Virus record (IMG/VR): IMGVR_UViG_3300035682_001186
Span: 45,271 to 109,270 of that record
DNA: 64,000 bases
Strand: one strand, 5' to 3'
DNA from: a virus
Positions 17,094 to 64,000 of the stretch are shown in pieces. Position 1 is the stretch's first letter, and each line of letters begins with the position of its first letter. Both the position numbers and the translations under genes were made by a program. The notes under the pieces are model-generated. The model was not told the origin of the DNA. It did no database searches and saw only the letters and a program-made list of their open reading frames with translations.

Positions 17094-17100
17094 TACAAAT

Positions 17101-17153: not shown

Positions 17154-17179
17154 ATGTCTTTGAAATTATATACGTAAAA

Positions 17180-17600: not shown

Positions 17601-17606
17601 GTAGTT

Positions 17607-18203: not shown

Positions 18204-18240
18204 GGTAATACTTATCTCTTTATTGTTAAATTTAAATATT

Positions 18241-21341: not shown

Positions 21342-21390
21342 CTAGTGATTATACAGTATGAAAATTGATTAATCAATATTTTCGGAGTGA

Positions 21391-48242: not shown

Positions 48243-48409
48243 CTAAATATAACATGAACACAAATAATGCATCTAAAGTAAGTCAAGAACAGAAACTAAG
48301 TTCACCGACTAAGAAACCAAACGAACAAGTAGGGTTTCATTTTAGTAGTTCAATGAAGATTACTGATCCAAAAACTGGAAAAGTACTTTTACAAATGAGA
48401 TGCGATTAA
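48239..48409 (+). CDS. Small 56-residue ORF, truncated paralogue of the following gene
   Basis: ATG at 48239 overlaps the preceding stop (ATGA), and the ORF ends with TAA at 48407-48409 inside the next gene's start. After a polar N-terminus the sequence VGFHFSSSMKITDPKTGKV aligns with ITFGIEGFLKIHDPKSGEV of the next protein, so it carries only that N-terminal beta hairpin motif. It could be a small virion protein or a relic of a tandem duplication. Its overlaps with both neighbours suggest it is translated. Confidence 0.55.
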   Translation: MTKYNMNTNNASKVSQEQKLSSPTKKPNEQVGFHFSSSMKITDPKTGKVLLQMRCD

Positions 48410-49038
48410 CGGATATTACTATGAAAACAAATATTACATTCGGAATTGAAGGTTTTCTGAAAATACATGATCCTAAATCTGGAGAAGTATTTTTTGACGA
48501 TCACAATGCAATAAATTACGAAAACATGTCAGAGGCTATGGCTTATACTTTAGCTGATCGTGGTAAAGGTACAATTTATCAAATGGCTTTTGGTAATGGT
48601 GCTGCTAGTATTGATAGTACTGGATTGATTACATATCTTCCACCTAATACTACTGGTCAAAATGCAGCATTATATAATCAAACATACGCTAAAATTGTTG
48701 ATGATACATTAATTTCAAATAATGATCCAACTAGAAACAATATGACAGTAAATCATGTAGTAGGTGAACTATATACTGATATTTTAGTACAATGTTTATT
48801 AGATTATGGTGAGCCAAGTGGTCAAGCCGCATTTGATAATGGTACAGATACAGATAGTACATATACATTTGACGAATTGGGATTATTAGCTAATTATGGT
48901 TTAGATGGTAATGGTAATGTATTAACTAGATTATTGACACATGTGGTGTTTGCACCAATTCAAAAATCACTAAATCGTCAAATTCAAATTGATTATACAG
49001 TAAGAATTCAGACGCTAACTAATTTGGTTACAATTTAA
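48400..49038 (+). CDS. Virion structural protein of unknown role
   Basis: A 212-residue protein. The first ATG is at 48400, and a second in-frame ATG at 48421 begins MKTNITFGIEGFLKIHDP and may be the true start. The KIHDPKSGEVFFDDHNAINYENMS opening (in two blocks) and the AYTLADRGKGTIYQMAFGNG segment occur in structural proteins of large T4-like phages. The rest is mixed alpha/beta, ending in a strand-rich VRIQTLTNLVTI. Position after the giant baseplate gene suggests baseplate or fibre attachment. Function inferred from context only. Confidence 0.65.
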   Translation: MRLTDITMKTNITFGIEGFLKIHDPKSGEVFFDDHNAINYENMSEAMAYTLADRGKGTIYQMAFGNGAASIDSTGLITYLPPNTTGQNAALYNQTYAKIVDDTLISNNDPTRNNMTVNHVVGELYTDILVQCLLDYGEPSGQAAFDNGTDTDSTYTFDELGLLANYGLDGNGNVLTRLLTHVVFAPIQKSLNRQIQIDYTVRIQTLTNLVTI

Positions 49039-49078: not shown

Positions 49079-49888
49079 ATGGCATATACTCTAACTTATT
49101 CAATTGGCACGATAACTGTCGTTGATACTACTCTTAATACTCAGACAAGTCTGGCCTTGCCTGGCAGAAACTATGCAGGGTATGGTCAACCGGTTGATCA
49201 AAATCAAATCTCTCTTTTAGAGAATTTTGCTAGTTATCCAGTTACTGGTCCAACTAATCCAATTCCTGGACAAACTTGGTATGATTCTAGTACAACATCT
49301 TTTAAAGTTAATACTAGTGCTAATTCAACTCCTAGTTGGCAATCTTTAGTAGTTTCAGGATCAGCCAGCACATCATTTGGCAACTTAACTGTTACAGGAA
49401 ATTTAACTACTACTCATATTACAACAGGTGGAAACACAATTCCTGGTGATTTTACTGGTAATTGGACATTAACTGCTGGAAGTAGACTAAATGCTACTTA
49501 CGCTGACTTAGGTGAAAGATTTGCCGCTGATGATGAATATGAAGCTGGTACTGTTATGGAAATGGGAGGAATTGCAGAAATTACAGCAGTTCGTGATGAT
49601 TTAAGTGATATAGTATTTGGAGTTATTAGTGAATCGGCTGGTGTTACAATGAACAGTGGCGCCGGATCACAATCTACACATCCAACAATTGCAATGACTG
49701 GTCGTGTTCCTGTTAAAGTTATTGGAAAGATCAGTAAAGGTGATAGATTAGTTTCTGCTGGTAATGGTCTCGCACGTGCGGCCAAGAAAAATGAAGCAAC
49801 TCCATTTAACACTGTTGGGCGTAGTTTAGAAGACAAATTAACTAACAGCGAAGGAAAAGTTCTGGCCGCCGTAAGTGTAAAACTTTAA
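49079..49888 (+). CDS. Tail-fibre-like protein with C-terminal chaperone-type domain
   Basis: A 269-residue protein. The N-terminal part (NYAGYGQPVDQNQISLLENF, NPIPGQTWYDSST) is the virion-attachment pattern of short fibre proteins in T4-like phages. The central ~60 residues are Thr/Gly-rich beta repeats. The C-terminal part opens with ATYADLGERFAADDEYEAGT and continues with V-E-GG-AEIT and VPVKVIGKISKGDRLVS. It is the conserved fibre C-terminal domain, often an intramolecular folding or peptidase-like module. Probably a receptor-contact or attachment fibre. Confidence 0.75.
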   Translation: MAYTLTYSIGTITVVDTTLNTQTSLALPGRNYAGYGQPVDQNQISLLENFASYPVTGPTNPIPGQTWYDSSTTSFKVNTSANSTPSWQSLVVSGSASTSFGNLTVTGNLTTTHITTGGNTIPGDFTGNWTLTAGSRLNATYADLGERFAADDEYEAGTVMEMGGIAEITAVRDDLSDIVFGVISESAGVTMNSGAGSQSTHPTIAMTGRVPVKVIGKISKGDRLVSAGNGLARAAKKNEATPFNTVGRSLEDKLTNSEGKVLAAVSVKL

Positions 49889-49912: not shown

Positions 49913-50842
49913 ATGACTTATGCACTAGGCGGATTAATACAAGCAACGGATCTTAATGGATTTGTTAGCACTGGATCACCAAACTTTAATAATATTTGGT
50001 CTACTGGAAGCAGTGACGCTGGATACGGTCAAACTGCAGTAAGTACAGTTACAGCTGGAACAACGGTTTCATTCAATCCATGGAACACATTAATTACAAA
50101 CATGGCAAGTGCCGCCGCTCATCAAGGTACATCTATAACTGCTATAACTGCTCCAGTAGCCGGAAATACAGTTGCTTATTTGTCAGCGTTAAGTACAAAT
50201 TTGACTAGCATTAATAACGGTAGATTAAATGCAGCTGCGGTGGGAACTGATATTACTACTAGTGCTACAAGAACAACAGATTGGGGCACAGCAGTTTCAA
50301 TACCGGTAGTAACTAGTACCGTTACTATTACATTTTCTTCTGCCACAACTGCCAGATACTTTTTTAATGCCGGTGGAACATTACGGATCAGTTGTAGTCG
50401 TACATTAGGATCAGGTAACCCACAAGATTTAGCATGGACTCAATTATGTACTGACATTGGTACATTGGCATTACCTGCAGTTAGCACAGCACAAACAATA
50501 GCAGGAACAAGTTTCACTGGATTTACGAAAATTGGAGGTGGTGGAACAGCCCCATCAACTTATGTAAGAAATGGATATTATAATTTAACCGGTACTCCTA
50601 CTACATATTTTCGACAATATTCCGATAGTGGAGTATATACTGGTGATAATCTATCAATGAATCTCAGTGTAAGTTCAAACATTGTTACTATTAGTGTAAT
50701 ATTTACTGATGTATCAAGTGGCACTGCAACCGACACTGTAACTGGTAGTTTGACAGTCACAGCTACGGCCAGACCACCATCAACTGTTAATATCGCTAAT
50801 AGTTGGGGAACTCCAACCGTAGCAGTAACAGCACCAGCTTAA
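49913..50842 (+). CDS. Virion structural/fibre protein
   Basis: A 309-residue Thr/Ser/Ala-rich protein, with GGAG before the ATG. The opening TYALGGLIQATDLNGF, followed by NIWSTGS-DAGYGQ, resembles small phage structural proteins with a short helical attachment part (WNTLITNMASAAAHQGT, about 58-74). A long beta-rich domain follows, with ARYFFNAGGTLRIS as a conserved strand. It lies directly after the fibre-like gene and is last before the modification cluster. Host receptor binding is possible but not shown. Confidence 0.65.
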   Translation: MTYALGGLIQATDLNGFVSTGSPNFNNIWSTGSSDAGYGQTAVSTVTAGTTVSFNPWNTLITNMASAAAHQGTSITAITAPVAGNTVAYLSALSTNLTSINNGRLNAAAVGTDITTSATRTTDWGTAVSIPVVTSTVTITFSSATTARYFFNAGGTLRISCSRTLGSGNPQDLAWTQLCTDIGTLALPAVSTAQTIAGTSFTGFTKIGGGGTAPSTYVRNGYYNLTGTPTTYFRQYSDSGVYTGDNLSMNLSVSSNIVTISVIFTDVSSGTATDTVTGSLTVTATARPPSTVNIANSWGTPTVAVTAPA

Positions 50843-50855
50843 ATTTTCTAATCTC

Positions 50856-50880
50856 ATGCAAATAGAATAAGTATTTGCAT
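50856..50880 (+). repeat. 8-bp inverted repeat between fibre genes and modification cluster
   Basis: ATGCAAAT and ATTTGCAT flank a 9-base spacer. No U-tract follows, and the right arm includes the start of the next ORF (50879). It may be a weak terminator or a translation-control hairpin. Confidence 0.4.
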
Positions 50881-51187
50881 GAATATAGAACTAATCAAAC
50901 AGACTAGTAAAACAAAGTACTTACATAGTCTTGCAAAAATTGCAAATAAAGAAAATCATGAATCATTACTATTAGTAACTATTAGTGGTGGAACATTTCG
51001 ATCCAGTCCAGAATTAATAGCTTTTTTAGATATTGAATCAATGGGTAATACAGTAATACTATTAGATATCTATGATAATCCAATTAGCGTTGATAGAATA
51101 CAATTGTTAGAACTGTGTATTACAGCATATAAAACCACTATGGATAGTTGGCTTAAATGTTCTGAACAAATAAATGGACAACGATAA
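50879..51187 (+). CDS. Conserved small phage protein, unknown
   Basis: A 102-residue protein. LIKQTSKTKYLHSLAKIANK, LLLVTISGGTFRSSPELIAFL and a C-terminal helix suggest an alpha/beta fold. I have an impression of similar short proteins near fibre genes in T4-like phages but cannot assign a function. Its TAA-less junction (last codon and stop meet ATG 51187) couples it to the next gene. Confidence 0.6.
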   Translation: MNIELIKQTSKTKYLHSLAKIANKENHESLLLVTISGGTFRSSPELIAFLDIESMGNTVILLDIYDNPISVDRIQLLELCITAYKTTMDSWLKCSEQINGQR

Positions 51188-51990
51188 TGTCTAAAGGTAT
51201 ATTATTATTTGCTATTGACACAGATGAAAAATCATATACTGATATGGCTAGATACTGTACAGAGAAAATTAAAGAACATTTAAACTTACAAGTTGCTTTA
51301 GTTACAAACAAAGATATTACGGATTCTTTGTTTGATCATGTTATTAACATAGAATCAGTAGAGACTCAAAGTAGAATCATTCCATCCACTGGTGTTAAAG
51401 AATCATGGAATAACTTTGGAAGATATCAGGCTTATGACTTAAGTCCATTTGATGAAACAATACTAATGGATACAGATTATATATGTCATAGTAATAAACT
51501 ACTAAAGTTATTTGATATGAATCAATCATTCTTATGCCATAAACGTAGAGTATATCTTGGTAGTCAAATTTATACTGATATTGAATATTTTGGAAAACAA
51601 TTAGAAATGTACTGGGCAACTGTGATATATTTTGATAAAAGTAATGAATCCAAATGTGTATTTGAAATGATGAAAATGATTCAAAAAAATTACGATCATT
51701 ATAGCAAGTTATATCGTTTTAGATCAAGTCCATATCGCAATGATTATGCATTAAGTATAGCATTAAACACTGTATATGGTCACTTAATTCCAAAGTCAGT
51801 AGAAATTCCATGGAGTTTAATGAACGTAGAGTTTAATACAGATATAACATTAAAAACTCCTACTAGTTGGGAATTAAAATTTAAGCGACAAGTAGAAAAC
51901 AAAATAATTGACTATAGAATAACAACATATGATCAAGATTTACATATTTTGAATAAAGATGCATTATTTACTATTATTGACAATAAATGA
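51187..51990 (+). CDS. Glycosyltransferase-like protein (GT-A fold), first of a paralogous pair
   Basis: A 267-residue protein. It starts ILLFAIDTDEKSYTDMARYC, an N-terminal nucleotide-binding-like strand/helix. The metal/nucleotide-sugar motif L-M-D95-T-D97-Y follows F-RYQAYDLSPFDET. The layout (early helix, DxD near residue 95, later F-SPYRNDYALSIALN) resembles GT-A enzymes of the GT8/capsule type. The next gene shows the same layout. Its stop overlaps the next start (ATGA). Acceptor unknown; virion glycoprotein or surface glycan are options. Confidence 0.6.
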   Translation: MSKGILLFAIDTDEKSYTDMARYCTEKIKEHLNLQVALVTNKDITDSLFDHVINIESVETQSRIIPSTGVKESWNNFGRYQAYDLSPFDETILMDTDYICHSNKLLKLFDMNQSFLCHKRRVYLGSQIYTDIEYFGKQLEMYWATVIYFDKSNESKCVFEMMKMIQKNYDHYSKLYRFRSSPYRNDYALSIALNTVYGHLIPKSVEIPWSLMNVEFNTDITLKTPTSWELKFKRQVENKIIDYRITTYDQDLHILNKDALFTIIDNK

Positions 51991-52754
51991 CACAAGGATA
52001 TATTATTCAAGCCATCAATACTGACACAGTAGATTATCAATCTTGTGCCAGAGTATTGACTAAATCGTTACGTGCAGTGGGTGATACAAGACCAATTACT
52101 ATAGTGACTGAAGTTCCATATGATACTGTCAGTAGTCTAACTCATGGCCCATATGCTGATGATTGGCAACTATATCAACAATCTCCGTATGATGAAACGT
52201 TTAAATTAGAAGCAGACATGATAGTGACCAGATCACTGGACAGTTGGTGGAATTCATTACGTAATCGTGATTTACATATAGCAAATGGATGTAGAAATTA
52301 TCTACAACATGAATCTAAATCTAGATACTATCGTCAAGTACTTGATAGTAATCTATTACCTGATTTATATAATGGAATAACTTATTTTAAGAAATCTGAT
52401 CTGGCAAAACAATTCTTTTTAACAGTAAGAGAAATATTTGCAAATTGGACAGAAATAAATGAAAGTTTAAAACATCCAAGTCAATTAATACATGGAGATA
52501 CTGACACTGTATATGCCATAGCTGCACAGATTATTGGTATTGAAAAATGTACTATTCCGAATAGCCCAATTCAGTTTGTACATATGAAACAAAAGATAAA
52601 CAATGGTATGGTTGAAGATTGGACCAGAGAAATGGTATGGGAATTGATTGGAACAGATTTTAGAATAAACACTGTTAGTCAATTATATCCAGTACACTAT
52701 CATATTAAATCATTGGCAACAAAATTGAACAATATATATGACTCACAAATTTAG
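51987..52754 (+). CDS. Glycosyltransferase-like protein, second of the paralogous pair
   Basis: A 255-residue protein. It opens YIIQAINTDTVDYQSCARVL, paralogous to the start of the preceding gene. At the DxD position it has LEADMIV (E75-A-D77), so the first Asp is replaced by Glu. QQSPYDETFKLEAD matches the SPFDETILMDTD block of its partner. IHGDTDTVYAIAAQIIG near 170-186 corresponds to the later conserved part. The overlap with the next gene is 17 bases. Likely sugar transfer with a different acceptor or donor than its partner. Confidence 0.58.
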   Translation: MTQGYIIQAINTDTVDYQSCARVLTKSLRAVGDTRPITIVTEVPYDTVSSLTHGPYADDWQLYQQSPYDETFKLEADMIVTRSLDSWWNSLRNRDLHIANGCRNYLQHESKSRYYRQVLDSNLLPDLYNGITYFKKSDLAKQFFLTVREIFANWTEINESLKHPSQLIHGDTDTVYAIAAQIIGIEKCTIPNSPIQFVHMKQKINNGMVEDWTREMVWELIGTDFRINTVSQLYPVHYHIKSLATKLNNIYDSQI

Positions 52755-53031
52755 ATTATATTATAATGATGATGGTACTCCAAAGTACTATAGTATGGAA
52801 GAACTTGAAGGTAATTTCATATTCATTGAGCGATCAGTATTTGAATCTAGTCGTTATGATATAGTGGTGATAAATGGTAAAATAAAATCATTAAGTGAAA
52901 ATATTATTTCCAAATATCACTTAGTCACTGAACAATCCAAATCTACAGTAATGTGTGATAGTGAAGATATATCTATTATTGTAGATAAAACTCAATCATA
53001 TAAATTATGGGACTACACATATAGTAACTAA
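52738..53031 (+). CDS. Small hypothetical protein
   Basis: A 97-residue protein (FRLYYNDDGTPKYYSMEELE near the start), predicted mostly beta. I do not recognise it with certainty. It sits between glycosyltransferase-like genes and overlaps the preceding one by 17 bases, so it is probably co-translated. Confidence 0.55.
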   Translation: MTHKFRLYYNDDGTPKYYSMEELEGNFIFIERSVFESSRYDIVVINGKIKSLSENIISKYHLVTEQSKSTVMCDSEDISIIVDKTQSYKLWDYTYSN

Positions 53032-53039
53032 ATATTCTG

Positions 53040-53984
53040 ATGAATACAGAATCAATCATTGAATATTTAGATGTAGCTGACTTGGATTGTATATATTTAA
53101 GTTACGATGAACCAAAAAAAGAAGAGTTTTGGGTCAAGATTAAAAATATGGTACCATGGGCCAAACGAGTAGATGGCGTTTATGGTAGTGATGCTGCACA
53201 TAAGGCTGCAGCCGAATCATCTGATACTGAAAGATTCATTCTAATAGATGGCGATAATATGCCAGATCAAAAATTTTTTGATTTAACATTAGAGATTACC
53301 GAACAAAATAAAAATGCTCAGTTTCGTTGGAGAGCCAAGAATCATGTAAACGGACTCTACTACGGTAATGGTGGTATGAGTAGTTGGACCAGATCATTTG
53401 TTAATCGTATGAAAACTCATGAGAATACAGACGGCACAGATCAAACTAATATTGAATTTTGTTTTGATCCACTGTACTGGCCAATGCATGATTGTTATAG
53501 TACTACTTATATTAATCATACGGCAAAACAAGCATGGAGAGCAGGATTTCGTGAGGGCGTTAAGATGTGCACTCGTAGTGGAGTAGTGCCGTCTAGTAAA
53601 CAAGAATTCTTAAAATGGGTGTGGCCTAGAAATTTACAGAATTTAAGTATTTGGCAAACTATAGGTCATGATGTTGAAAATGGATTTTGGGCAATTCATG
53701 GCGCTAGATGTGGTACGTACTATCTGATGTTAGAACAAAATTGGAATCATACTGAGGTCAGAGACTTTAATAAACTTGATGAGTTGTGGGAATTACATAA
53801 GAATGATCAAGAATCAGATTCCATTAAAATTGCTCAAGAACTAAATAAACATCTAGGTACAAACATTATAGAGTTTGATGAACAACAAAGCAAATTTTTC
53901 AAAGACTATATCAGTAAAAATTGGAACAATATGGGTCCAATGATTACAGAATTATCAGTGATTAGATCACAAGAGGGTTGGTAA
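53040..53984 (+). CDS. Glycosyltransferase family 2-like protein
   Basis: A 314-residue protein. It has a Rossmann-like start (DLDCIYLSYDEPKKEEFW), then KRVDGVYGSDAAHKAAAESS, an adenine/uridine-region helix, and the metal-binding F-I-L-I-D70-G-D72-N. NGLYYGNGGMSSWTRSFV (about 109-126) looks like an acceptor-site segment. The second half has Trp-rich helices. The stop overlaps the next ATG (TAATG), with AAGAGGG as ribosome binding site for the downstream radical-SAM gene. Confidence 0.6.
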   Translation: MNTESIIEYLDVADLDCIYLSYDEPKKEEFWVKIKNMVPWAKRVDGVYGSDAAHKAAAESSDTERFILIDGDNMPDQKFFDLTLEITEQNKNAQFRWRAKNHVNGLYYGNGGMSSWTRSFVNRMKTHENTDGTDQTNIEFCFDPLYWPMHDCYSTTYINHTAKQAWRAGFREGVKMCTRSGVVPSSKQEFLKWVWPRNLQNLSIWQTIGHDVENGFWAIHGARCGTYYLMLEQNWNHTEVRDFNKLDELWELHKNDQESDSIKIAQELNKHLGTNIIEFDEQQSKFFKDYISKNWNNMGPMITELSVIRSQEGW

Positions 53985-54931
53985 TGGAACATAAATATTT
54001 TAAATTAGAACATAGTAATTCTAGTCATAAAGATTGGTTTGTTGTCAACTGGTGTTTAGGAAATACATGTAATTTTGCATGTAGTTATTGTCCTGATAGT
54101 CTACATGATGGATCAATTCGTTGGCCAGAGTTAGATAAAATAAAATCATTCATTGCCAAAGTAGTAGAACAAACTGCACCTAGAAAAGTATACTTTGAAT
54201 TTACTGGTGGTGAAGTTACTTTATACAAATACTTTACTGAAATTTGTCAATACTGTACAGAATTGGGTGCTAAAGTTGGTCTAATTAGTAATGGTTCACG
54301 TACATTACGTTGGTGGGAAGAACATAAACAATATTTTGATCATGTTTGTTTGAGTTTTCATCCAGAATTTGCAGATCCAGAACACTTTATTAACGTGGCA
54401 AAAATTCTACACAATGATGTACGTACACATGTTAACATCATGATGAGTCCGGAAAAGTTTGATTATTGTTATGATGTTGCTAATAGAGTAAAAGATATTG
54501 GAAATTTAAGTATGGCATTACAACCATTGATTCATGATTTTGGTGATACATTGTTTGATTATAATGACTTTCAAAAACAAATATTTGACAATCAACATGA
54601 ATTGATTACTAAACACATTGTGTTTGATAAATCTTTTGACTATTATCGTGGTGCAATGCGATTACAGTTTGAAGATGGAACTAGTCGTATATCAAGTGCA
54701 CATAGATTCATCAGTGATAAAACTAATGATTGGAGTGGATGGAAATGTTATGCTGGAGTTGAGCAAATCATTGTTGATTTAAGAGGATTAATATATCGTG
54801 GTTGGTGTCGTGTAGGGGATACTATTGGACATGTGTTTGATGATAATCTAAGAATACCTACTGATCCAGTTGTATGTGATAAAACAATGTGTCATTGTAA
54901 CTTTGATATTATGAGTACTAAGGAGAAATAA
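53984..54931 (+). CDS. Radical SAM protein with C-terminal SPASM-like cysteines
   Basis: A 315-residue protein from ATG 53984. C29-N-F-A-C33-S-Y-C36 is the CX3CX2C motif that binds the catalytic 4Fe-4S cluster, and FEFTGGEVTLY (about 69-79) is the SAM-binding GGE motif. Late in the sequence, WKCYAGV, GWCRVGD and CDKTMCHC provide five more Cys that could hold an auxiliary cluster (SPASM/twitch type). Such enzymes often modify peptides or sugars. TAATG junctions on both sides couple it to its neighbours. Confidence 0.82.
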   Translation: MEHKYFKLEHSNSSHKDWFVVNWCLGNTCNFACSYCPDSLHDGSIRWPELDKIKSFIAKVVEQTAPRKVYFEFTGGEVTLYKYFTEICQYCTELGAKVGLISNGSRTLRWWEEHKQYFDHVCLSFHPEFADPEHFINVAKILHNDVRTHVNIMMSPEKFDYCYDVANRVKDIGNLSMALQPLIHDFGDTLFDYNDFQKQIFDNQHELITKHIVFDKSFDYYRGAMRLQFEDGTSRISSAHRFISDKTNDWSGWKCYAGVEQIIVDLRGLIYRGWCRVGDTIGHVFDDNLRIPTDPVVCDKTMCHCNFDIMSTKEK

Positions 54932-55071
54932 TGATAGAAGATTGTCGTTTGAACAACATTGAAATAGTGGACAATCATAAAAATGTAAAAATGTATGATG
55001 ATTCTTATTCGGAAATTATAGAAAATTATCAAGAAGTTATAGATTTTATTGAGCACTGTCATAATGAATGA
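54931..55071 (+). CDS. Tiny ORF (46 residues) between two radical-SAM genes
   Basis: ATG 54931 overlaps the preceding stop (TAATG) and has AAGGAG before it, a strong ribosome binding site. The ORF ends TGA at 55069-55071, overlapping the next gene's start region. The peptide is acidic (MIEDCRLNNIEIVDNHK at the start, IEHCHNE at the end) with two Cys. It could be a small partner protein, or a substrate peptide of the adjacent radical-SAM enzymes. Neither can be shown. Confidence 0.5.
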   Translation: MIEDCRLNNIEIVDNHKNVKMYDDSYSEIIENYQEVIDFIEHCHNE

Positions 55072-56296
55072 CGCTAATACTAATAAACAATTCAGAATCT
55101 ACGATAAGACAAAAAAATATATTAGACTGTCAGTGGATGAGACTATTGCTAGAGGGTTAAACAAATGGCAAGACTGGCAATGTAGTGCCGGAACTAGAGG
55201 ATTATATATAGACTTTGATGGTAATCTTTGGATTTGTAATACGGCTAGTGCCAAGTTAGATAGATTTAATTTTGATGGATGGAGATCAATATTAAAACAG
55301 CATAAACCTGTTAACCCAACTGAAGAATGGTGGCCTATACAAAACAAGTTAGGTTTAGAATATCGTAAAACTAAAGACGCATTTAAAAAAGTTTTAGATA
55401 ATACTGATGAAGTTAAAGCGCAATATCCTGGATTTTTGGGAAATATTTTTGATGGTTATGAATTTCCTAAATCTTGGTTCAATTGTCCTTGGGATAGTTG
55501 TGGATGTGGCGCTGATGTTATATTATCCAAATCAAAAACTATAGATGATAAACAACTGCTTTCTGTTACTAACCATCGTTGGGAAGGAAAACAAAAAACA
55601 TCTGACGATTTAGTTGATGTTATTGACGAATCAACTGCAGTTGAAATGAATTTTCCTATTCCATATCAAATATTATGGGACTTGGGACGTAGATGTAACT
55701 ATGACTGTAGTTACTGTTGGACTAGTGTACATAATAGAACTGATGATCATAAAGATTATGATTTGTTAATAAGTACGGCAGATGATCTGATTTATAATTG
55801 GGCTAAAGGTCAGAGTATACGTTGGAATTTTGGTGGTGGTGAACCGACATTACACCCTAGATTTTTAGATTTTTTAAAATATCTTAAAAGTCATAATCAA
55901 TGGACAATGGTAACATCAAATGGAACCAGAGATCATAAATACTGGACAGAGGCAGTTAAGTATATGAATAGTATTAATTTAAGTGCTCACTTTGATGGAT
56001 TATTAGATGAAAAAGATGAAGATCGTTTTGTGAAAAATATTGAATCAATTTGTAAACATTTTGACGAACATAATGATGATCATTGGCTAGAGATTAAATT
56101 AATGGCCCCACCACAATATATAGATAGAGCATTGAGACTTAGAGATAAAATCAAGTCATTGGGCACATTAGATAAACTTGGCGCCAATAATAGAATAAAA
56201 GGTATGATTAGTCTTGTACCAATTAGAGGACTTGGCGATAGTGGTATACTAGTTGAATATACAGAAGAACAATTAGATATTTTTAGGACACAATAA
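55064..56296 (+). CDS. Radical SAM protein with N-terminal SPASM/twitch-like region
   Basis: A 410-residue protein from ATG 55064; an upstream TTG at 55049 is unlikely. Domain order is reversed relative to the previous radical-SAM protein. Residues 40-150 hold an auxiliary-cluster-like region (WQCSAGTRGLYIDFDGNLWI with C40, then C58, and CPWDSCGC at 141-148). The catalytic CNYDCSYC motif lies at 211-218, followed by WNFGGGEPTLHP. The N-terminal part closely echoes the C-terminal part of the preceding protein (W-C-AG---I--D--G), as if modules had been shuffled. Confidence 0.78.
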   Translation: MNDANTNKQFRIYDKTKKYIRLSVDETIARGLNKWQDWQCSAGTRGLYIDFDGNLWICNTASAKLDRFNFDGWRSILKQHKPVNPTEEWWPIQNKLGLEYRKTKDAFKKVLDNTDEVKAQYPGFLGNIFDGYEFPKSWFNCPWDSCGCGADVILSKSKTIDDKQLLSVTNHRWEGKQKTSDDLVDVIDESTAVEMNFPIPYQILWDLGRRCNYDCSYCWTSVHNRTDDHKDYDLLISTADDLIYNWAKGQSIRWNFGGGEPTLHPRFLDFLKYLKSHNQWTMVTSNGTRDHKYWTEAVKYMNSINLSAHFDGLLDEKDEDRFVKNIESICKHFDEHNDDHWLEIKLMAPPQYIDRALRLRDKIKSLGTLDKLGANNRIKGMISLVPIRGLGDSGILVEYTEEQLDIFRTQ

Positions 56297-56298
56297 TC

Positions 56299-56988
56299 AT
56301 GAATTTACAAGAAATACATCGACTGATAGACAAGCATTTGCCAATGGTGAGATTTGAAGATTTAAAAGTAATAATTGAACTTTTGAATTATACAAAACCT
56401 AACTCTATTTTAGAATTAGGCACCGGCACCGGCGGGTGGATATTATCTATCAACGAAGCTCTAGACCACGATATGTCCTTTATCGGATATGAAAATTTTA
56501 AATGGGATAGTATTGGTCAACAGTTTACGGATATTAAACAATTAGAAACTCAATTACATCTGATATCAAAAAATAATAAAATTACATTAAAAGACAGTGA
56601 TGTAACTAAGTTAGATAATTTAGAGTTTAATGGTCAGTTATTTGATGTAGTAAGATTAGATTGTTTAGAAGAAAGCAATGATATCGATAGATTATTTTAC
56701 AAAATATTTCCTTACACATCGGATAATTGTATTTTTTTAGTAGATGATATAGTACCAAATAATTGCCCAAATAGATTTTTAACCTACATGAATAAAGTAG
56801 GCGACGGCATATTAAAACCAATCTGGTTTGGTAATAAAGAAGGCGCATGGTGTAAATACTCTTATAACCACAATCCATTACTAGATCATGTAATATTTCA
56901 TATCAAAGATGAGATATCATACAGTGACAATCTCATACATTGGTACAATAAACAAGAAAAATATTTACAGACTAGAGGGTCGATTTAA
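56299..56988 (+). CDS. SAM-dependent methyltransferase (class I-like)
   Basis: A 229-residue protein. SILELGTGTGGWILSI (about 36-51) is the glycine-rich SAM-binding loop, followed by an acidic residue on the next strand (FIGYENF). FDVVRLDCLEE near 115 and CIFLVDDIVPNNCPNR near 142 correspond to motifs III-IV, as in the cephalosporin-hydroxylase/TylF-like or FkbM-like O-methyltransferase groups. The substrate cannot be told. It is 3 bases after the radical-SAM gene and 4 before the next. Confidence 0.72.
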   Translation: MNLQEIHRLIDKHLPMVRFEDLKVIIELLNYTKPNSILELGTGTGGWILSINEALDHDMSFIGYENFKWDSIGQQFTDIKQLETQLHLISKNNKITLKDSDVTKLDNLEFNGQLFDVVRLDCLEESNDIDRLFYKIFPYTSDNCIFLVDDIVPNNCPNRFLTYMNKVGDGILKPIWFGNKEGAWCKYSYNHNPLLDHVIFHIKDEISYSDNLIHWYNKQEKYLQTRGSI

Positions 56989-56991
56989 AAT

Positions 56992-59295
56992 ATGAACTAC
57001 TACGAAATAATAAAAAACAGCACTAGCCACTTGGATAGGTGCGAAGTTGCTTCGGCAACAGATTGCCCTATTGACCTACTAACAATGTTTATCACCCATG
57101 ACAGTGAGATCGATGTGGTAAGAGCAGCTGCTCTAAATTTAGTATGTTCAGCTGAGTTGCTTAAGATTGCTGCTACCAGATTTCCTGAGTTTGCTGGTGA
57201 CGAATTTTTAGCAATGCGAGAAAAGAAAAAGCACCAATATTTAATTTTAAAAGAAATTGAAGAACTTGAACAAACATATGGTAATTTGTTAGTTAATGAT
57301 CGAGATGAAATTATTAGAAAACATATCCTAAAAGAAAATTACATTGATCATGCATCGTCACATTTAGGGATTAGTCCCGAAGAATTTAAATCTAGAAATT
57401 TAGTTAATTTTGTAAATCCTGATGTACAATGGGCAGATACTGATAAGTTTAGAGTTGCTATGATTATTGCTCCTGCTTGGGGGGTTCTTTTCCCGCCATA
57501 TAATATTGCTAAATTAACAGGATTAATGCGTAGTCAAAAATATAGCGTAAAGGTATTGGATCTTAATATAGAATCATATCATAGATTAAAAAGTTTACAT
57601 GGAGAAGATTATTGGAGGTCTGAAAGATATTTCTTATGGCTAGATCAAGTTAATTTTGAAAAATATTTGCTACCAGATTTAGAACCATTGTTTGATAGAA
57701 TTATTTTAAACTTATCAATAGAAAAACCTAAAGTTGTGGGATTCTCTATCTATAATACAAACTTTCACGCAACTATGTATTTGTTAAAGAAACTAAAAGA
57801 AGTATTGCCGAATACTTGTTTTATTGCAGGCGGCCCTGAAATGGCTGAAAGATATAATTGTTCTTACGATTTACCTAAAGACTTTAATTACATTTTTGTT
57901 GGAGAAGCTGAAGCTAGTCTAATAGAATTTTTAAATGAAGTTCCAAGTATAACAACTTATGAAAAAGGTAAAGTTATTGGTACTACTACTAGTAGATTAA
58001 ATTTAGATGAATATGCATATCCTGATTATTCTGATTATATATTATCAAATTATCAAGAAGGATCGGGAATCAGTGCGGAAACTTCTAGAGGATGTGTAGC
58101 ACAATGTAGTTTTTGCTCAGAAACATACTATTGGAGATTCAGAAGTTTAAGTCCAGAGAGAACAATTTCAGAGATTGAACATCAAATTAAAAATTATAAT
58201 ATTAACAGAGTTTGGTTTGTAGATAGTTTAATTAATGGGGATCTAAAAAGTTTTAAGAAACTAGTTGATTTAATTTTAGAAAAAGAATTAAAGTTTAAAT
58301 GGAATAGTTATGCCAGATGTGACGGAAGAATGACTAAAGAATTTATTCAAAAAATTGCAGACAGTGGATGCAATTGTCTAAGCTACGGAGTCGAGAGTGG
58401 TAGTCAAAAAATATTAGACAATATGAGAAAAAAAATTGAAGTATGGGAAGTTGAGAACAATCTCAGAGATACTAGTGATGCTGGAATTTTTGCACATATA
58501 AACTGGATGATTGGATTTCCAACCGAAGATGCAATTGATTGGATGCATGGTCTACAATTATTGTTTAATTGTAGAAAACACATACATGCTATTAGTGTGG
58601 GATACGGTGCTGGTGCTGCTCCTGGAAGTCATATGAAAGAAGACCCTGACTATTATGGAATAAATTTTGATTATTTTCTAGATAATTGGAGAGACGAACA
58701 TTATACAAATACTCAACTACATAGATTTTTACGCATAAAACTTACACATATATGGTTAGCTATTATTAATAAGAATTCTAATGAAAAAATACATGATGCG
58801 ATTTCATACGCAAGTCTGGATAATTTTTATACTATTAGTGGTCTTGGTAATCCTAAGATAGACTATGATCCTGCTGATAATTATGTTGTATTTCCTGCAA
58901 CAAGTTTTGAAATCAGTATGGAATCTGAATATCTTGCATTCTTTTATGTAATTTACAAATATTTTGGTGCATTTTCTATTAATTTAAAATCTGATCCCGG
59001 ATCAGATAAAGCTGTATTTGGTAAATTTATTGCGGCAAATTATGTCAGTAAAGTATTTTTCGAAGTTAACGATAATGGAGATTATACTTTTAAAATTAAT
59101 CATGAGTTTTCTCATTCATCACCTGATGATGTTGAACGAGAAGAAAAATATAAAAAAGAAAGAGAAACACGAGACATGAGCTTTTCTAAAGAAAGATCAG
59201 AACATGGAAATATTCAATCCTGGATTTCAACTGTTTCACAAGTTAAGTCGTCAATTAAGCCAGCAAAGAAAAAATTTATGTTAAAACAGGAATAA
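56992..59295 (+). CDS. B12-binding-type radical SAM protein with N-terminal repeat adaptor
   Basis: A 767-residue protein. Residues 1-65 look like a helical LRV/HEAT-like repeat (ATDCPIDLLTMFITHDSE). About 150-330 resembles a cobalamin-binding domain: AMIIAPAWGVLFPPYNIAKL, VKVLDLNI, KVVGFSIYNTNF and FIAGGPEMA. The catalytic C368-V-A-Q-C372-S-F-C375 follows ETSRG, and YGVESGSQKILDNM (about 467-480) is a B12-radical-SAM signature. The C-terminal ~150 residues are charged and possibly dimerising. Such enzymes methylate unactivated carbons or rearrange rings. Its adaptor is shared with the gene at 61471. Confidence 0.8.
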   Translation: MNYYEIIKNSTSHLDRCEVASATDCPIDLLTMFITHDSEIDVVRAAALNLVCSAELLKIAATRFPEFAGDEFLAMREKKKHQYLILKEIEELEQTYGNLLVNDRDEIIRKHILKENYIDHASSHLGISPEEFKSRNLVNFVNPDVQWADTDKFRVAMIIAPAWGVLFPPYNIAKLTGLMRSQKYSVKVLDLNIESYHRLKSLHGEDYWRSERYFLWLDQVNFEKYLLPDLEPLFDRIILNLSIEKPKVVGFSIYNTNFHATMYLLKKLKEVLPNTCFIAGGPEMAERYNCSYDLPKDFNYIFVGEAEASLIEFLNEVPSITTYEKGKVIGTTTSRLNLDEYAYPDYSDYILSNYQEGSGISAETSRGCVAQCSFCSETYYWRFRSLSPERTISEIEHQIKNYNINRVWFVDSLINGDLKSFKKLVDLILEKELKFKWNSYARCDGRMTKEFIQKIADSGCNCLSYGVESGSQKILDNMRKKIEVWEVENNLRDTSDAGIFAHINWMIGFPTEDAIDWMHGLQLLFNCRKHIHAISVGYGAGAAPGSHMKEDPDYYGINFDYFLDNWRDEHYTNTQLHRFLRIKLTHIWLAIINKNSNEKIHDAISYASLDNFYTISGLGNPKIDYDPADNYVVFPATSFEISMESEYLAFFYVIYKYFGAFSINLKSDPGSDKAVFGKFIAANYVSKVFFEVNDNGDYTFKINHEFSHSSPDDVEREEKYKKERETRDMSFSKERSEHGNIQSWISTVSQVKSSIKPAKKKFMLKQE

Positions 59296-59302
59296 AATTT
59301 AA

Positions 59303-60583
59303 ATGATACCCGATAATAAAGTTTTTTGCATGGCGCCATTTATTCATACATATGTAGAACCTACTGGATCGGTTCGTCCATGTTGTGTTGCACAGTCGGA
59401 GACTTTTGGAAATATTCAAGAAGATTCTATAGAAAATATTTGGAATAACAACAAGTATAAAACGATTAGACTAAGAATGATCAACAATGAGCCAAGCCCA
59501 GAATGCAAAAGATGTATGACTGAAGAATCGTGGAGCAATCAGTCTATGAGATTGGCCATGAATAATTTGTACTCTGATCAAATTGATATAGTTAATTCTG
59601 TAACATCAGACGGGGAATTACCAAATATTCGGTTACTAAGATGGGATTTTAGATTTAGTAATCTATGCAATCTAGCATGTATTGGTTGTTCTCCAGAATA
59701 CAGTAGTACATGGTCTGATCTAGCAACACAAATGTACAATGTAAAACAACCTATATTTTTAAATAACAAAAATCATATGCAACAGTTTTTAGATACAGTG
59801 TTTAATTCTAGTATTGATTCAGTTAAACAAATCTACTTTGCCGGAGGAGAACCATTAATTCAATGGGAACATTATGAAGTATTGAAACAATTACTAGATC
59901 ATGGTAATTTAGATTCAATTGAATTTTCCTACAGTACCAATTTAACTAGTTTAAATTTTAAAGGAACTAACATATTGGATTATTGGACCAAGATGAAGAA
60001 ATTATCAGTTTGTGTAAGCATTGATGAAGTAGATGAAGATCGCTTACACTATATACGTTATCCATCTTCAATGGATAAACTACTACCAAATTTAAAATTA
60101 TTAAAAGAGAATTTAACTACTCAAGAACAAACATACACTATTACACCAACTTGGAGTATACTAAACACTCATCGGATAAAAGAGTATATGGAGTTTCTCT
60201 TAGAGAATGATCTATTACCTAATTCATTTAGCGTTCAATCAAAATGGGAACATGACTTTCATTTAATTATAATGTTAGATCCAGATCGTCTGTCAGTTGG
60301 TGCCAGTAGTCCAGAATGGAAAATAGAGTTACATAAGAAAATTACCGAGTATCAAGAATGGTATAAGAGTACTCTAATACCTTTAAAACATAAAGGTGTA
60401 CGAGATGTTTGTATCAAAGTTCTGGATCAGAACATTGAAAGATTTCATAGTGCTATTGATCGAAATGTGCCATACGATTATGAACAGTGGCAGTTATGGA
60501 TTAGCCGACTCGATACTGCTAGAAAGACAGACTGGACAAAAACTTTTCCTGAGCTATCATGGCACTTAAATAAACACAATTAA
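59303..60583 (+). CDS. Twitch-domain radical SAM protein
   Basis: A 426-residue protein. An N-terminal auxiliary-cluster region comprises FCMAPFIH (C9), VRPCCVAQ (C27-C28 approximately) and ECKRCMTEE. It is the arrangement seen in N-terminal-twitch radical-SAM proteins. The catalytic C122-N-L-A-C126-I-G-C129 follows WDFRFSN, and FAGGEPLIQWEHYE (about 176-189) binds SAM. A TIM-barrel-like second half and a helical end follow. The same architecture is seen at 61471. Substrate unknown; context of glycosyltransferases suggests sugar or peptide chemistry. Confidence 0.82.
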   Translation: MIPDNKVFCMAPFIHTYVEPTGSVRPCCVAQSETFGNIQEDSIENIWNNNKYKTIRLRMINNEPSPECKRCMTEESWSNQSMRLAMNNLYSDQIDIVNSVTSDGELPNIRLLRWDFRFSNLCNLACIGCSPEYSSTWSDLATQMYNVKQPIFLNNKNHMQQFLDTVFNSSIDSVKQIYFAGGEPLIQWEHYEVLKQLLDHGNLDSIEFSYSTNLTSLNFKGTNILDYWTKMKKLSVCVSIDEVDEDRLHYIRYPSSMDKLLPNLKLLKENLTTQEQTYTITPTWSILNTHRIKEYMEFLLENDLLPNSFSVQSKWEHDFHLIIMLDPDRLSVGASSPEWKIELHKKITEYQEWYKSTLIPLKHKGVRDVCIKVLDQNIERFHSAIDRNVPYDYEQWQLWISRLDTARKTDWTKTFPELSWHLNKHN

Positions 60584-60584
60584 T

Positions 60585-61469
60585 ATGGCAAACATTATAT
60601 GTGTAACTTGCAGGCGAGACTTTTCTGATTTTAAAAGACAAGTTAAAAGTTTTAAAAAACATCTTCAATTAGATCATTCCATTACTTACATAATAGAAGA
60701 TGCAGATAATATAGACCCATATGTTGAATTTATTAACTTATCTAGCATTAAAAATAATATAAAAATATTTCCTAGTACTAGATTTATACCTAAAGATATT
60801 ATAGCACACGGGCATATAAAACAACAACTACTTAAATTATTAGCATCTGCTGGTTCAGCCGAAGAAGAATGTTGGGTTATTGATTCAAAAGATTTTTTAG
60901 TTAGTAGTCCTGATACGAATAGTATTGATCCGTTCTCTGCTATCGAAGCTGACCCGACTCGTGACCCGCACTTCTTTTTAAAAGACAAGTACTGTAAAAA
61001 GTTTAATTTTAAATACGTTGATAAATTAAGTTTACCATGGACTCCATTTAAATTAATAAAATCAAATGTAATAGGTTTAATAAACTTATTAGGAGCAACA
61101 GAGTTTACAGAATGGTTTTTATCTGAGCCGGAACAATGCGAATTTTATCTTTATCAACTGTACTGTTACTCTAACGATTTACCCATTGAATTCAAATATA
61201 AAGAAACCGTAATCAAACTTTGGCCTTATATAATTAGTAATACTCCCAGTGTAGATTATCTAGAACTTGTTAAAGACAAACTAACAAAAGAAGGGGTACA
61301 GTGGATTTCTAAGCATAGATGGGCACATCATTCTTGGAATGCCGAAGTGATGAGTGTATGGAAAGATATTATATCTCTAAGTGATTTAACAGAATACGAT
61401 GTTTTCTTTGAAGAAGATAAGCATGAATTTATAGAATTTGTTAATCGCAATTGCAAAATTAAGGAATAA
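60585..61469 (+). CDS. Glycosyltransferase-like protein (DUF6492-type appearance)
   Basis: A 294-residue protein. The start NIICVTCRRDFSDFKRQVKS is a GT-A-like first strand and helix. GHIKQQLLKLLAS precedes WVIDSKDFLV, where D100 and D103 could be the metal site. DKYCKKFNF, LPWTPFKL and NTPSVDYLELV lie further on. This pattern resembles family-2-like or DUF6492-type transferases of surface polysaccharide loci. It overlaps nothing and is one base from the previous stop. Confidence 0.55.
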   Translation: MANIICVTCRRDFSDFKRQVKSFKKHLQLDHSITYIIEDADNIDPYVEFINLSSIKNNIKIFPSTRFIPKDIIAHGHIKQQLLKLLASAGSAEEECWVIDSKDFLVSSPDTNSIDPFSAIEADPTRDPHFFLKDKYCKKFNFKYVDKLSLPWTPFKLIKSNVIGLINLLGATEFTEWFLSEPEQCEFYLYQLYCYSNDLPIEFKYKETVIKLWPYIISNTPSVDYLELVKDKLTKEGVQWISKHRWAHHSWNAEVMSVWKDIISLSDLTEYDVFFEEDKHEFIEFVNRNCKIKE

Positions 61470-61470
61470 A

Positions 61471-62991
61471 ATGAATTGGTTTGAAAAATTAAGTGCAGCC
61501 ACTCACTGTGAAGAAAGAGAAAAAATTGCACAGGATCTCAATTGTCCTGAGAATCTTTTAGAAATTTTGATCAAAGAAGATGTAGAAGAAACTGTAATTG
61601 AGGCTGGTATTACTAATATCAATTGTCCAGATTATCTTAAAGAAATTGGTCAAACTAGACTTCAGGAGATTCTGAGACGAAAGAGCGAAGAAACAAACTC
61701 TAGCATGTGTCCTATACCATGGACTCATATTGGAATCCAACAAAATGGTGACTATAGAATCTGTTGTCAGGCAATATTTGCCCCGTTTGGCAAATTAGAG
61801 ACCAATGGTGAATTATTAAATATAAAAAATATTGATATCAATCAAGCAAGAAATCACAAAGCGTTTAAGTCTTTAAGATTACAGATGTTAAAGAATCAAA
61901 AACCAAATGAATGTACATTATGTCATACTGAAGAAAAATCTGGACTCAATAGTAAACGAATTTTTATGTTGAGAAAATATGACGTTAGTACATATAAAGA
62001 CCTTACTCATGAGGATGGAACAATTGACATTGATCAATACCCATTGCGATACATTGACATTCGATTCGGAAATTTATGTAATTTAAAATGCAGATATTGT
62101 GGCCCAGGAGACAGCAGTTTATGGTACGAAGACTTTATTAAGTTACATAAAACTAACATTATTAATTATTATGGGACAAAACAGTATCCGATTGTTATGA
62201 ATAATAATAAATGGGAAATAGATAGTTTAGATTTTAATTGGTATGAAGATGAAAAATTTTGGAATTGTATCAAGACATTGTTTCCCTATATAGATAGATA
62301 TTATTTCACTGGTGGTGAACCAACCATCAACAAAACTCATTATGAACTATTACAATTAATAATTGATGGAGGATATAGTGACAAAGTTACATTAGAGTAT
62401 AATTCTAATATGGTTGCTATACCTGAAAAATTATATAATCAATGGGATCAGTTTAAAGAAGTTAGTATTGGATGTAGTATTGATGGATATAAAGAGTATG
62501 CAAACTATCTAAGATATCCTTCTAAATGGGACGATTTAGAAGTTAATCTAGATTATTTAGGATATAGATCAAATAAAAATATCGTTGGTGGATTGTCAAC
62601 TACCATTAACGTTTACAATGTTTTAAACTTTTTGGATCTATCTGAATGGTTACTCAATAAAAAATATACTAGAATTAAAAATATTCCTAGTTATCATGTG
62701 TTAGAGAGTCCAAGTTCAATGAGTATACAAGTTTTACCTATAGAAACAAAACAATTTATAAAAGAACAGTATCAATTATTTTACGATAAAATTGATCAAA
62801 TTCATGGTACTTCAATTGGAGATCGTATTAAATTGGCATTTAATGGAATTATAACTTATATGTTTGCCAAAGATAATAGTCATTTACTATCATCATTATC
62901 AGAAAAAACTAAATCATTGGATGTAATTCGAAATCAAAAAATATCAGATATTATACCATGGTTGTCCGATATACTTGACAAACATTGTTAA
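61471..62991 (+). CDS. Twitch-domain radical SAM protein with N-terminal repeat adaptor
   Basis: A 506-residue protein from ATG 61471, which has AAGGAATAAA before it; a longer frame from 61438 is inside the previous gene. Residues 1-65 repeat the adaptor seen in the 767-residue protein (LNCPENLLEILIKEDVEE, NINCPDYLKEIG). The twitch-like region follows (MCPIPWTHIGI, RICCQ, CTLC). The catalytic C203-N-L-K-C207-R-Y-C210 and YFTGGEPTINKTHYE come next. It pairs by architecture with the 59303 gene. Confidence 0.82.
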   Translation: MNWFEKLSAATHCEEREKIAQDLNCPENLLEILIKEDVEETVIEAGITNINCPDYLKEIGQTRLQEILRRKSEETNSSMCPIPWTHIGIQQNGDYRICCQAIFAPFGKLETNGELLNIKNIDINQARNHKAFKSLRLQMLKNQKPNECTLCHTEEKSGLNSKRIFMLRKYDVSTYKDLTHEDGTIDIDQYPLRYIDIRFGNLCNLKCRYCGPGDSSLWYEDFIKLHKTNIINYYGTKQYPIVMNNNKWEIDSLDFNWYEDEKFWNCIKTLFPYIDRYYFTGGEPTINKTHYELLQLIIDGGYSDKVTLEYNSNMVAIPEKLYNQWDQFKEVSIGCSIDGYKEYANYLRYPSKWDDLEVNLDYLGYRSNKNIVGGLSTTINVYNVLNFLDLSEWLLNKKYTRIKNIPSYHVLESPSSMSIQVLPIETKQFIKEQYQLFYDKIDQIHGTSIGDRIKLAFNGIITYMFAKDNSHLLSSLSEKTKSLDVIRNQKISDIIPWLSDILDKHC

Positions 62992-63023
62992 GTATATCCA
63001 GTATTATAATAAAGGAATCATAT

Positions 63024-63122
63024 ATGATTATAATTAACTTCTTCAAAAAATTAGTCAGAGAATATAGATTAAAAAAACGTCTGAAAGAACTACGTAAAAA
63101 AGATCCATTTATATACAAATGA
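63024..63122 (+). CDS. Very small basic ORF (32 residues)
   Basis: ATG 63024 is preceded by AAAGGAATCAT, a fair ribosome binding site. The peptide is basic and amphipathic (FFKKLVREYRLKKRLKELRK) and ends TGA overlapping the ATG of the next gene (ATGA). It may be a translation-coupling leader, a small membrane or nucleic-acid-binding peptide, or a substrate peptide. Too short to judge. Confidence 0.4.
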   Translation: MIIINFFKKLVREYRLKKRLKELRKKDPFIYK

Positions 63123-64000
63123 TTCATTGGGGCGTAAATGCATTAAATCATGAACATGGAATTGCCGTATTTAAAGATAATAGATTTATTGACAATTATG
63201 TTGGTCAACATGATCAAATATCAAGATTAAACATTGATCTATCATTTGAACACGGAATACCAGATAGAATTTTTTGGTATGAAAATCCTTGGATAAAAAA
63301 GATTCGTCAAATATATGCGGGTCAATATAATAGAGCATTTGATTTTAGTGTATTACCAAAAAATTATATGAATTTATATACAGCGGCACCTATTACTTAT
63401 ACTTCACATCATGCTAGTCATGCAGCGGCTGGGTATTATACAAGTCCATTTAGTAACTGTGCAATTGTAGTTCTTGATGCAATAGGAGAATTTGAATGTG
63501 CTACAATTTGGCAAGCTAAACACGATGAATTACATAAAGTATGGAGTCGCAGTTATCCAAATAGTTTAGGATTATTTTATAGCGCATTTACTAAGTTAGT
63601 CGGACATACACCAATCAAAGACGAATACTTATTACAAAACATGGCAGAATTGGGCGATTCTACGAGATATTATAATCTCGTATTAACATATATGAACGGA
63701 CTGATTCAATCTCAGAAGAATCTTCATCGTGGAATATCTGATTGGCCCTATGAGATTAAAAATTTACAAGACAAATGTGACATTGCCGCGGCTGTTCAAC
63801 GAGTATTTGAGATTCAAATTGAATCAGTTATGATAAAAGCCAAACAGTTAACTGATTCAGATTCATTAGTTTACATGGGTGGTTGTGCTATGAACAGTAA
63901 AACGAATAAAGATATTGTAGAACCAATGTGGAAATATATATGGTCATTGCCGAATCCAGGTGATGAAAGTAGTGGTATAGGAGCAGTATTATATCATACT
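63119..64000 (+). CDS. Carbamoyltransferase, NodU/CmcH/TobZ type (C-terminus beyond window)
   Basis: 294 codons are visible from ATG 63119 and the frame is open at the right edge. The opening (HWGVNALNHEHGIAVF, then a strand) and the S96-H97-H98-A-S-H101-A motif are those of the carbamoyladenylate-forming domain. Further typical features are IVVLDAIGEFE, SLGLFYSAFTKLVG, MGGCAMNSKTN and PNPGDESSGIGAVLY. Such enzymes use carbamoyl phosphate and ATP to O-carbamoylate sugars or natural products. It is the last visible gene of the modification cluster and overlaps the 32-residue ORF by 4 bases. Confidence 0.88.
   Translation, partial: MIHWGVNALNHEHGIAVFKDNRFIDNYVGQHDQISRLNIDLSFEHGIPDRIFWYENPWIKKIRQIYAGQYNRAFDFSVLPKNYMNLYTAAPITYTSHHASHAAAGYYTSPFSNCAIVVLDAIGEFECATIWQAKHDELHKVWSRSYPNSLGLFYSAFTKLVGHTPIKDEYLLQNMAELGDSTRYYNLVLTYMNGLIQSQKNLHRGISDWPYEIKNLQDKCDIAAAVQRVFEIQIESVMIKAKQLTDSDSLVYMGGCAMNSKTNKDIVEPMWKYIWSLPNPGDESSGIGAVLYHT

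Follow-up and report, generated by a model that had tools for sequence, protein, structure and literature searches.

A fibre-linked phage locus with a conserved glycosyltransferase-like core and an exchangeable block of radical-SAM enzymes, possibly serving glycan tailoring

Genes of the operon

The window analysed here comprises 64,000 nucleotides of the IMG/VR virus record IMGVR_UViG_3300035682_001186 (positions 45,271 to 109,270), the right-hand 64 kb of a 109,270-bp contig of an uncultured aquatic virus, and ends where this contig ends. It holds an operon in which glycosyltransferase (GT)-like proteins and five radical S-adenosylmethionine (SAM) enzymes are encoded directly behind fibre genes. 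From position 50879 to the window end all genes lie on the plus strand, as do the fibre genes before them, and most overlap or are at most 10 bp apart; genes and proteins are named by their start positions below. All starts listed in a first-pass annotation of the sequence proved to be real plus-strand open reading frames (ORFs) with the overlaps described there. Two small ORFs of the same strand, 54931–55071 (46 amino acids, aa) and 63024–63122 (32 aa), had been missed. The cluster was also expected to continue past the window, which it does for about 60 bp only: in the contigs L006 and L007 the carbamoyltransferase gene is the last of the operon, and the next gene is convergent. As noted earlier, no clear promoter or terminator lies inside. 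Promoter-like matches were not enriched (71 versus 89.5 in shuffles), and none of the terminator-like matches (8 versus 3.9 expected) fell into a plus-strand intergenic gap of the operon.

The conserved part of the locus begins with a gene of the virion or fibre module (48400–49038; phrog_11259, E 6e-61), whose product is 36–97% identical to its counterparts in syntenic relatives. It is followed by genes for a tail-fibre-like protein with a conserved C-terminal region (49079–49888; phrog_6427, E 3e-16; phrog_19602 'tail fiber protein', E 1e-4) and for a variable, Ser/Thr-rich fibre-like protein (49913–50842), a candidate substrate of the enzymes encoded downstream. Ser and Thr account for a fraction of 0.31 in this protein versus 0.10–0.15 in the cluster enzymes. 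Directly before the fibre genes lies a single ORF of 4170 aa (35730–48242), presumably for a giant virion protein.

The GT-like proteins, four of which had been counted in the first-pass annotation, are assigned with different strength. AlphaFold models of 51187 and 53040 were built from alignments of 31 and 34 sequences, respectively. The model of 51187 (51187–51990; pLDDT 93.8) matched the GT8 enzymes glycogenin and GlyE in Foldseek (E 1.5e-6, probability 1.0), and D95 and D97 of a DxD motif are invariant in its family. Predicted fold and DxD motif, not sequence family, make its assignment as a GT8-type enzyme of the GT-A class well supported. Protein 51987 (51987–52754; phrog_1903, E 2e-13) has a degenerate motif, EAD, and is regarded as a second GT-like protein because of its similarity to 51187 (about 25% identity). 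For 53040 (53040–53984; pLDDT 91.2), the last protein of the conserved core, the listed PDB matches of the model are weak and mostly GT-A enzymes, SunS being the first; D70 and D72 (DxD) are invariant, and a GT-A glycosyltransferase is a plausible prediction. The lineage-specific protein 60585 (60585–61469) is a putative, DUF6492-like glycosyltransferase weakly related to a DUF6492 protein of locus L086 (E 3e-8 in one BLASTP comparison), and no other relative was seen among the retrieved loci. None of the four GT-like proteins matched a Pfam or NCBIfam profile.

All five predicted radical-SAM proteins exceed the Pfam cut-off for Radical_SAM (PF04055), and the CX3CX2C motif was read in each of them (in gene order CNFACSYC, CNYDCSYC, CVAQCSFC, CNLACIGC and CNLKCRYC), as the first-pass annotation had stated. 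The first enzyme (53984–54931; 42.9 bits) has a C-terminal twitch-like Cys domain, and large phage contigs encode relatives that are up to 82% identical to it. In the second (55064–56296; 46.1 bits) the twitch-like Cys domain is permuted to the N-terminus. The Cys residues of this N-terminal part and of the barrel are invariant in an alignment of 26 sequences, two of which are tandem genes of one Bacteriovoracaceae bacterium. With radical-SAM-twitch followed by twitch-radical-SAM, the two neighbours resemble a circular-permutation pair (A-B, B-A), and in L109 and L121 a pair of this type is adjacent without the GT core. The third enzyme (56992–59295; 57.3 bits) carries an N-terminal helical module and a B12-binding domain (30.6 bits, slightly under the Pfam cut-off). 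Both remaining enzymes, 59303 (59303–60583; 313.7 bits) and 61471 (61471–62991; 343.4 bits), belong to the N-terminal twitch family NF033640 (cut-off 170); their SPASM domain lies at the N-terminus, ahead of the barrel, and 61471 has an extra N-terminal module. Neither 53984 (22.9 bits) nor 55064 (35.6 bits) qualifies for NF033640. Against viperin (NF038283, at least 180 bits) they reached 62.6 and 55.9 bits, respectively, in the barrel region only. Viperin-like synthesis of antiviral nucleotides was rejected on these scores, far under the cut-off, and on the extra Cys-rich twitch-like domain of both proteins.

A class I methyltransferase had also been named. Protein 56299 (56299–56988) is kept as a SAM methyltransferase-like protein with weak support, since its Pfam matches (Methyltransf_31/24, E 0.0016–0.0029) lie below the cut-off. 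The NodU/CmcH-type carbamoyltransferase seen at 63119 was clearly recovered (63119–64000 in the window; Carbam_trans_N, E 9e-27), and its PDB relatives are novobiocin carbamoyltransferase, GdmN and TobZ. Carbam_trans_C was not found in this protein; a paralogue on the same contig has both domains. The protein measures 312–313 aa in L006 and L007 versus 484–493 aa in relatives. A broken gene was ruled out by the occurrence of the short form in two contigs and about ten relatives: such proteins with an N-terminal domain only, of about 290–343 aa, are encoded in L333, L349, L375, L384 and L389 as well as in the window.

A conserved core followed by an exchanged radical-SAM block

To survey the locus without picking it by its radical-SAM genes, GT-like protein 53040 was used for retrieval. 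It matched at least 600 stretches, of which the best 80 were compared, and the frequencies given here are those among close relatives. All loci are metagenomic contigs, and E-values of the locus scans are relative to the candidates. The fibre gene 49913 lies upstream of 53040 in 78 of the 80 contigs, and both upstream GT-like genes (51187 and 51987) are present in every one. The tail-fibre-like gene 49079 was found in 77 loci, and two further core genes, encoding proteins of 102 aa (50879–51187) and 97 aa (52738–53031), in 76 and 57 loci, respectively. At least one radical-SAM gene follows within the fetched stretch in 78 of the 80 contigs, five being the most frequent number. This synteny, together with a second contig free of any bacterial insertion, bears out the earlier view of a phage-encoded biosynthetic cluster tied to fibre genes. 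Because that contig, L006, matches the window over 17,009 bp with 2 mismatches (99.99% identity), misassembly is unlikely, and a misassembly with bacterial DNA, the doubt raised in the first-pass annotation, is ruled out by it. The GC content of the cluster (0.30–0.33 versus 0.30–0.41 in the window overall) was likewise used as an argument against a bacterial insertion.

The fibre/GT core is conserved, and the radical-SAM block is exchanged between phages. In locus L239 the fibre-module proteins 48400 and 49913 are 97% and 91% identical to those of the window and the GT-like proteins 76–87%, while every radical-SAM protein is at most 31% identical. L083 has the opposite pattern: fibre protein 49913 is 38% and the GT core 39–57% identical, and five radical-SAM enzymes occur in the same order with 44–76% identity. 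Over 2,667 locus pairs, fibre identity and GT identity are correlated (Spearman 0.71). More than half of the pairs whose 53040 proteins are 80–90% identical share no radical-SAM protein at 50% identity, and many pairs at 78–92% have few or none in common at this level. According to these identity patterns the five-enzyme set of the window is a cassette with its own history, replaced en bloc in the comparisons with L239 and L083, like the interchangeable module of phage CP220. In four loci (L094, L096, L098, L102) the GT-like protein 53040 and the radical-SAM enzyme 53984 are fused into one polypeptide.

The N-terminal helical module of 61471 is shared with the B12 enzyme 56992 (hhalign probability 97.2, E 4e-11). 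Among the best-scoring 61471 relatives, the module is found at loci with a B12 enzyme (L083, L120, L122; the contig of L123 is short) and is absent from loci that showed no B12 enzyme (L097, L113, L099, L118). Exceptions are L088 and L103, which have the B12 enzyme and a 61471 relative without the module. The shared module supports the cassette as a working unit. In L083, an ORF of 1177 aa after the cassette contains repeats like FDFSWHPDPxxPPYIYQFGTQWQKTGGP, and the gene just beyond the operon of the window phage (L006: 17749–18003) begins with a repeat of the same type.

A scan for relatives of the radical-SAM enzymes 53984 and 55064 also matched at least 600 stretches. Since both collection scans matched that many, the investment in radical-SAM enzymes appears common and not exotic; 25 whole contigs picked for holding such genes have 2–18 each. 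The first-pass annotation had called so many radical-SAM genes unusual. This is true in comparison with cultured phages, as tblastn of three of the proteins against 50,697 phage records yielded only 3, 4 and 3 records, all weak, but not within this lineage.

Possible substrates and products

We tentatively read the operon as a locus for fibre-linked glycan tailoring, in part fixed and in part made up of exchangeable radical chemistry, and would put this somewhat short of an even chance. The fixed part would consist of the fibre genes and the three GT-A-type GT-like proteins, the exchangeable part of the radical-SAM-twitch and twitch-radical-SAM enzymes, the B12 enzyme, the two N-twitch enzymes, the methyltransferase, the fourth GT-like protein and the carbamoyltransferase with its N-terminal domain only. 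The enzymes would work in the cytoplasm of the host during late infection. The glycosyltransferases would place sugars on an acceptor, for which the Ser/Thr-rich product of the adjacent upstream fibre gene is the most likely candidate, and the radical-SAM enzymes may perform C–H chemistry on the acceptor sugars or on sugar precursors, i.e. dehydrogenation or epimerisation as in BtrN-type enzymes and C-methylation by the B12 enzyme. O-methylation and carbamoylation could add further marks. A swap of the radical-SAM block might then create a new decoration and alter receptor binding or recognition by host or competitors, the fibre itself being unchanged.

Glycan chemistry is suggested by sugar-enzyme neighbours, structural relatives and a second cluster of the same phage, and the GT8-type fold of 51187 and the GT-radical-SAM fusions also speak for the glycan-tailoring reading. 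Near the arrays of relatives a UDP-sugar dehydrogenase, an NAD-dependent epimerase, a DegT aminotransferase and a nucleotidyltransferase are encoded; functions named by motif alone (SGNH-like, sulfotransferase-like in relatives; no Pfam match) were not used as evidence. The profile of the N-twitch family matches the sugar dehydrogenase BtrN among PDB relatives, and the carbamoyltransferase matches TobZ and GdmN as mentioned above. The second fibre-side cluster (contig 10596–21801, minus strand; L157/L158) encodes Pfam-supported GT4-, GT9- and GT2-type enzymes, two sulfotransferases, an APS-kinase-like protein, a full-length carbamoyltransferase and methyltransferases, which suggests a sulfated, carbamoylated glycan. 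A fibre-like protein with collagen-like GATGATGSTG repeats is encoded at contig position 42664–45033 (L159). In some bacterial surface proteins, Gly-X-Thr repeats of this kind carry O-glycans.

No cluster protein has a membrane-helix-like hydrophobic stretch (maximum KD 1.5), and profile searches recognised no flippase or lipid-carrier (polyprenyl-phosphate) transferase in the operon. A cytoplasmic acceptor is therefore likely, and the strict coupling to fibre genes together with 31% Ser plus Thr makes the fibre the favoured one. The more specific proposal of a combinatorial fibre decoration, in which the fixed fibre/GT core and exchangeable radical-SAM arrays would yield C–H-functionalised, possibly carbamoylated or methylated virion sugars, is doubtful.

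The missing membrane proteins, flippases and polyprenyl-phosphate glycosyltransferases also speak against the related explanation that the enzymes remodel a host surface glycan (O-chain, capsule or precursors) for superinfection exclusion or progeny release, with the fibre linkage reflecting a shared host-recognition island. Furthermore, genes placed among fibre genes are probably expressed late, at a stage when surface remodelling would be less useful, and several bacterial relatives look stand-alone (L175, L201, L223, L226, L231). Nevertheless the GT8 fold predicted for 51187 would suit such a role, and a bacterial N-twitch relative lies beside aminotransferase and ABC polysaccharide-export-like genes (L160; identified by sequence only). 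Host-recognition clusters of pelagimyophages with fibres, glycosyltransferases and radical-SAM cassettes are read as host-glycan remodelling in PMC7029224. NF033640 relatives occur in Bdellovibrionota, Bacteroidota and other bacteria, and because their neighbourhoods are mixed (export-like loci, stand-alone genes, one synthase-like cluster) they do not decide the substrate. We consider host-surface remodelling rather unlikely; the virion is the favoured target, even if the evidence does not choose decisively between the two.

Several observations weigh against fibre-linked glycan tailoring. For the two GT-like families that were searched, no solved structure matched in sequence, and the model of 53040 agrees only weakly in fold with known enzymes (best E 1.7e-3). 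Radical-SAM content follows fibre identity only modestly (Spearman 0.31 over the same 2,667 pairs). Some close relatives of 53984 are encoded apart from the fibre/GT core (L082, L085, L089, L099, L103, L109, L119, L121), so the radical-SAM block does not need these fibres. GT8 enzymes of pelagimyophages are interpreted as modifiers of the host O-chain in PMC7029224, and acceptor and product are inferred here. In addition, the best family match of the B12 enzyme 56992, below threshold, is to the radical-SAM C-methyltransferase of ribosomally synthesised and post-translationally modified peptides (RiPPs; TIGR03975, 122.1 bits versus a cut-off of 281.85).

This match also favours the explanation that the radical-SAM enzymes modify protein directly, with the fibre itself or a short precursor peptide as substrate. 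SPASM and twitch domains, as present here, are common in peptide maturases, and the operon contains two small ORFs. The 46-aa ORF 54931 is coupled to both neighbours and preceded by AAGGAG; as a RiPP precursor it was rejected, having no conserved relatives (tblastn over the loci, best E 0.016). The 32-aa microprotein 63024 ends with KELRKKDPFIYK and overlaps the start of the carbamoyltransferase gene. Its relatives (L319–L397), found in 264 viral stretches in one scan, are about 30–50 aa long, end with KELRKRDPFIYK and usually overlap the carbamoyltransferase gene start or sit just upstream of it; a variant, YKKKLEELRKRDPFIYKNH, was found away from a carbamoyltransferase. In cultured phages tblastn gave no match for the microprotein, possibly due to low-complexity masking. 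This peptide (DPFIYK), the only widely conserved one, was rejected as a RiPP precursor because it tracks the carbamoyltransferase and not the radical-SAM enzymes, none of which was recognised at 30 of its 79 loci. Among 211 distinct intergenic small ORFs no family follows the radical-SAM arrays across lineages, and no conserved precursor lies beside a maturase; recognition element, peptidase and exporter were not recognised either. Direct protein modification is thus improbable. Of the outcomes proposed in the first-pass annotation (virion decoration, altered host glycan, small molecule or modified peptide), glycan tailoring is favoured and the modified peptide gained no positive support.

For a diffusible small molecule, aminoglycoside-like or a metabolite acting on the host, the enzyme inventory itself is an argument: radical-SAM, B12-radical-SAM, carbamoyltransferase and GT classes co-occur in aminoglycoside pathways, and the PDB relatives include TobZ and BtrN. 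Yet no gene was recognised for a committed step of scaffold building, for export or for self-resistance, and the fibre/GT core would be unneeded for such a product, which leaves this explanation with a slim chance. Slimmer still is that of hypermodified phage DNA. Glycosyltransferases of phages are known DNA modifiers, and methylation by radical-SAM enzymes was suggested for the refractory DNA of phage IBB_35 by its genome authors (PMC3322345). However, the strict coupling is to fibre genes and not to replication genes, and DNA hypermodification was dismissed because none of the operon's genes was recognised as acting in base modification or nucleotide synthesis.

If glycan tailoring of the fibre is correct, it would be, to our knowledge, the first glycan built by radical enzymes on a virus particle, and fibre decoration by radical-SAM arrays would be a chemical counterpart of diversity-generating tail-fibre variation. 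With a virion or surface glycan as product, host recognition could be altered by a swap of chemistry and not of protein sequence; different modifications are predicted for the window phage and L239, whose fibres are near-identical. The anatomy is testable, as the conserved core predicts the acceptor and the fused proteins are single-polypeptide candidates. Large aquatic phages commonly make an unexplained investment in oxygen-sensitive enzymes, as many as 18 per contig, and their arrays hold a wealth of uncharacterised radical enzymes.

Comparison with known phage systems

Phage modules with several radical-SAM genes have already been reported, without a product, for CP220, a TARA T4-like genome and pelagimyophages. 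The Campylobacter phages CP220 and CPt10 have 11–12 radical-SAM genes per genome and an interchangeable module of five (PMC2853527), so that such numbers are not unusual historically. As in our loci, the genes are consecutive, and closely related phages differ by replacement of the whole five-gene module; immediately behind the CP220 module lie two nucleotide-diphospho-sugar-transferase-like genes. In contrast, the CP220 module includes an amidinotransferase, and its annotation lists neither a preceding fibre/GT8 core nor a carbamoyltransferase within it. The likeness is one of gene content and annotation, and the module was explained by its authors as a metabolic advantage, not as decoration (PMC2853527).

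In pelagimyophages the host-recognition cluster combines tail fibres, glycosyltransferases and radical-SAM cassettes in a hypervariable island (PMC7029224). One protein of the pelagimyophage HTVC008M contains a radical-SAM-like stretch with similarity to 53984 (E 6e-6, 31% of the query) and is followed by a methyltransferase, a carbamoyltransferase and a UDP-sugar dehydrogenase. The consulted passages of PMC7029224 mention the cassettes only in passing and describe neither a fixed core with an exchangeable block nor fusion or permutation. Similarly, the marine T4-like genome TARA_ERS488813_N000010 has many (12) radical-SAM genes, which the consulted passage of PMC5332604 treats as a load of Fe–S proteins, with no reference to an operon, fibres or GT genes. 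Proteins 59303 and 61471 are members of the described family NF033640, from which the phage loci differ by expansion, with 452 recognised genes of the related family in about 95 clusters at 45% identity. The passages compared here describe no fixed core with an exchangeable block, no strict fibre linkage in many phages and no GT-radical-SAM fusion; nor do they describe the permuted domain pair, the N-terminal module common to 56992 and 61471 or the carbamoyltransferase consisting of the N-terminal domain only.

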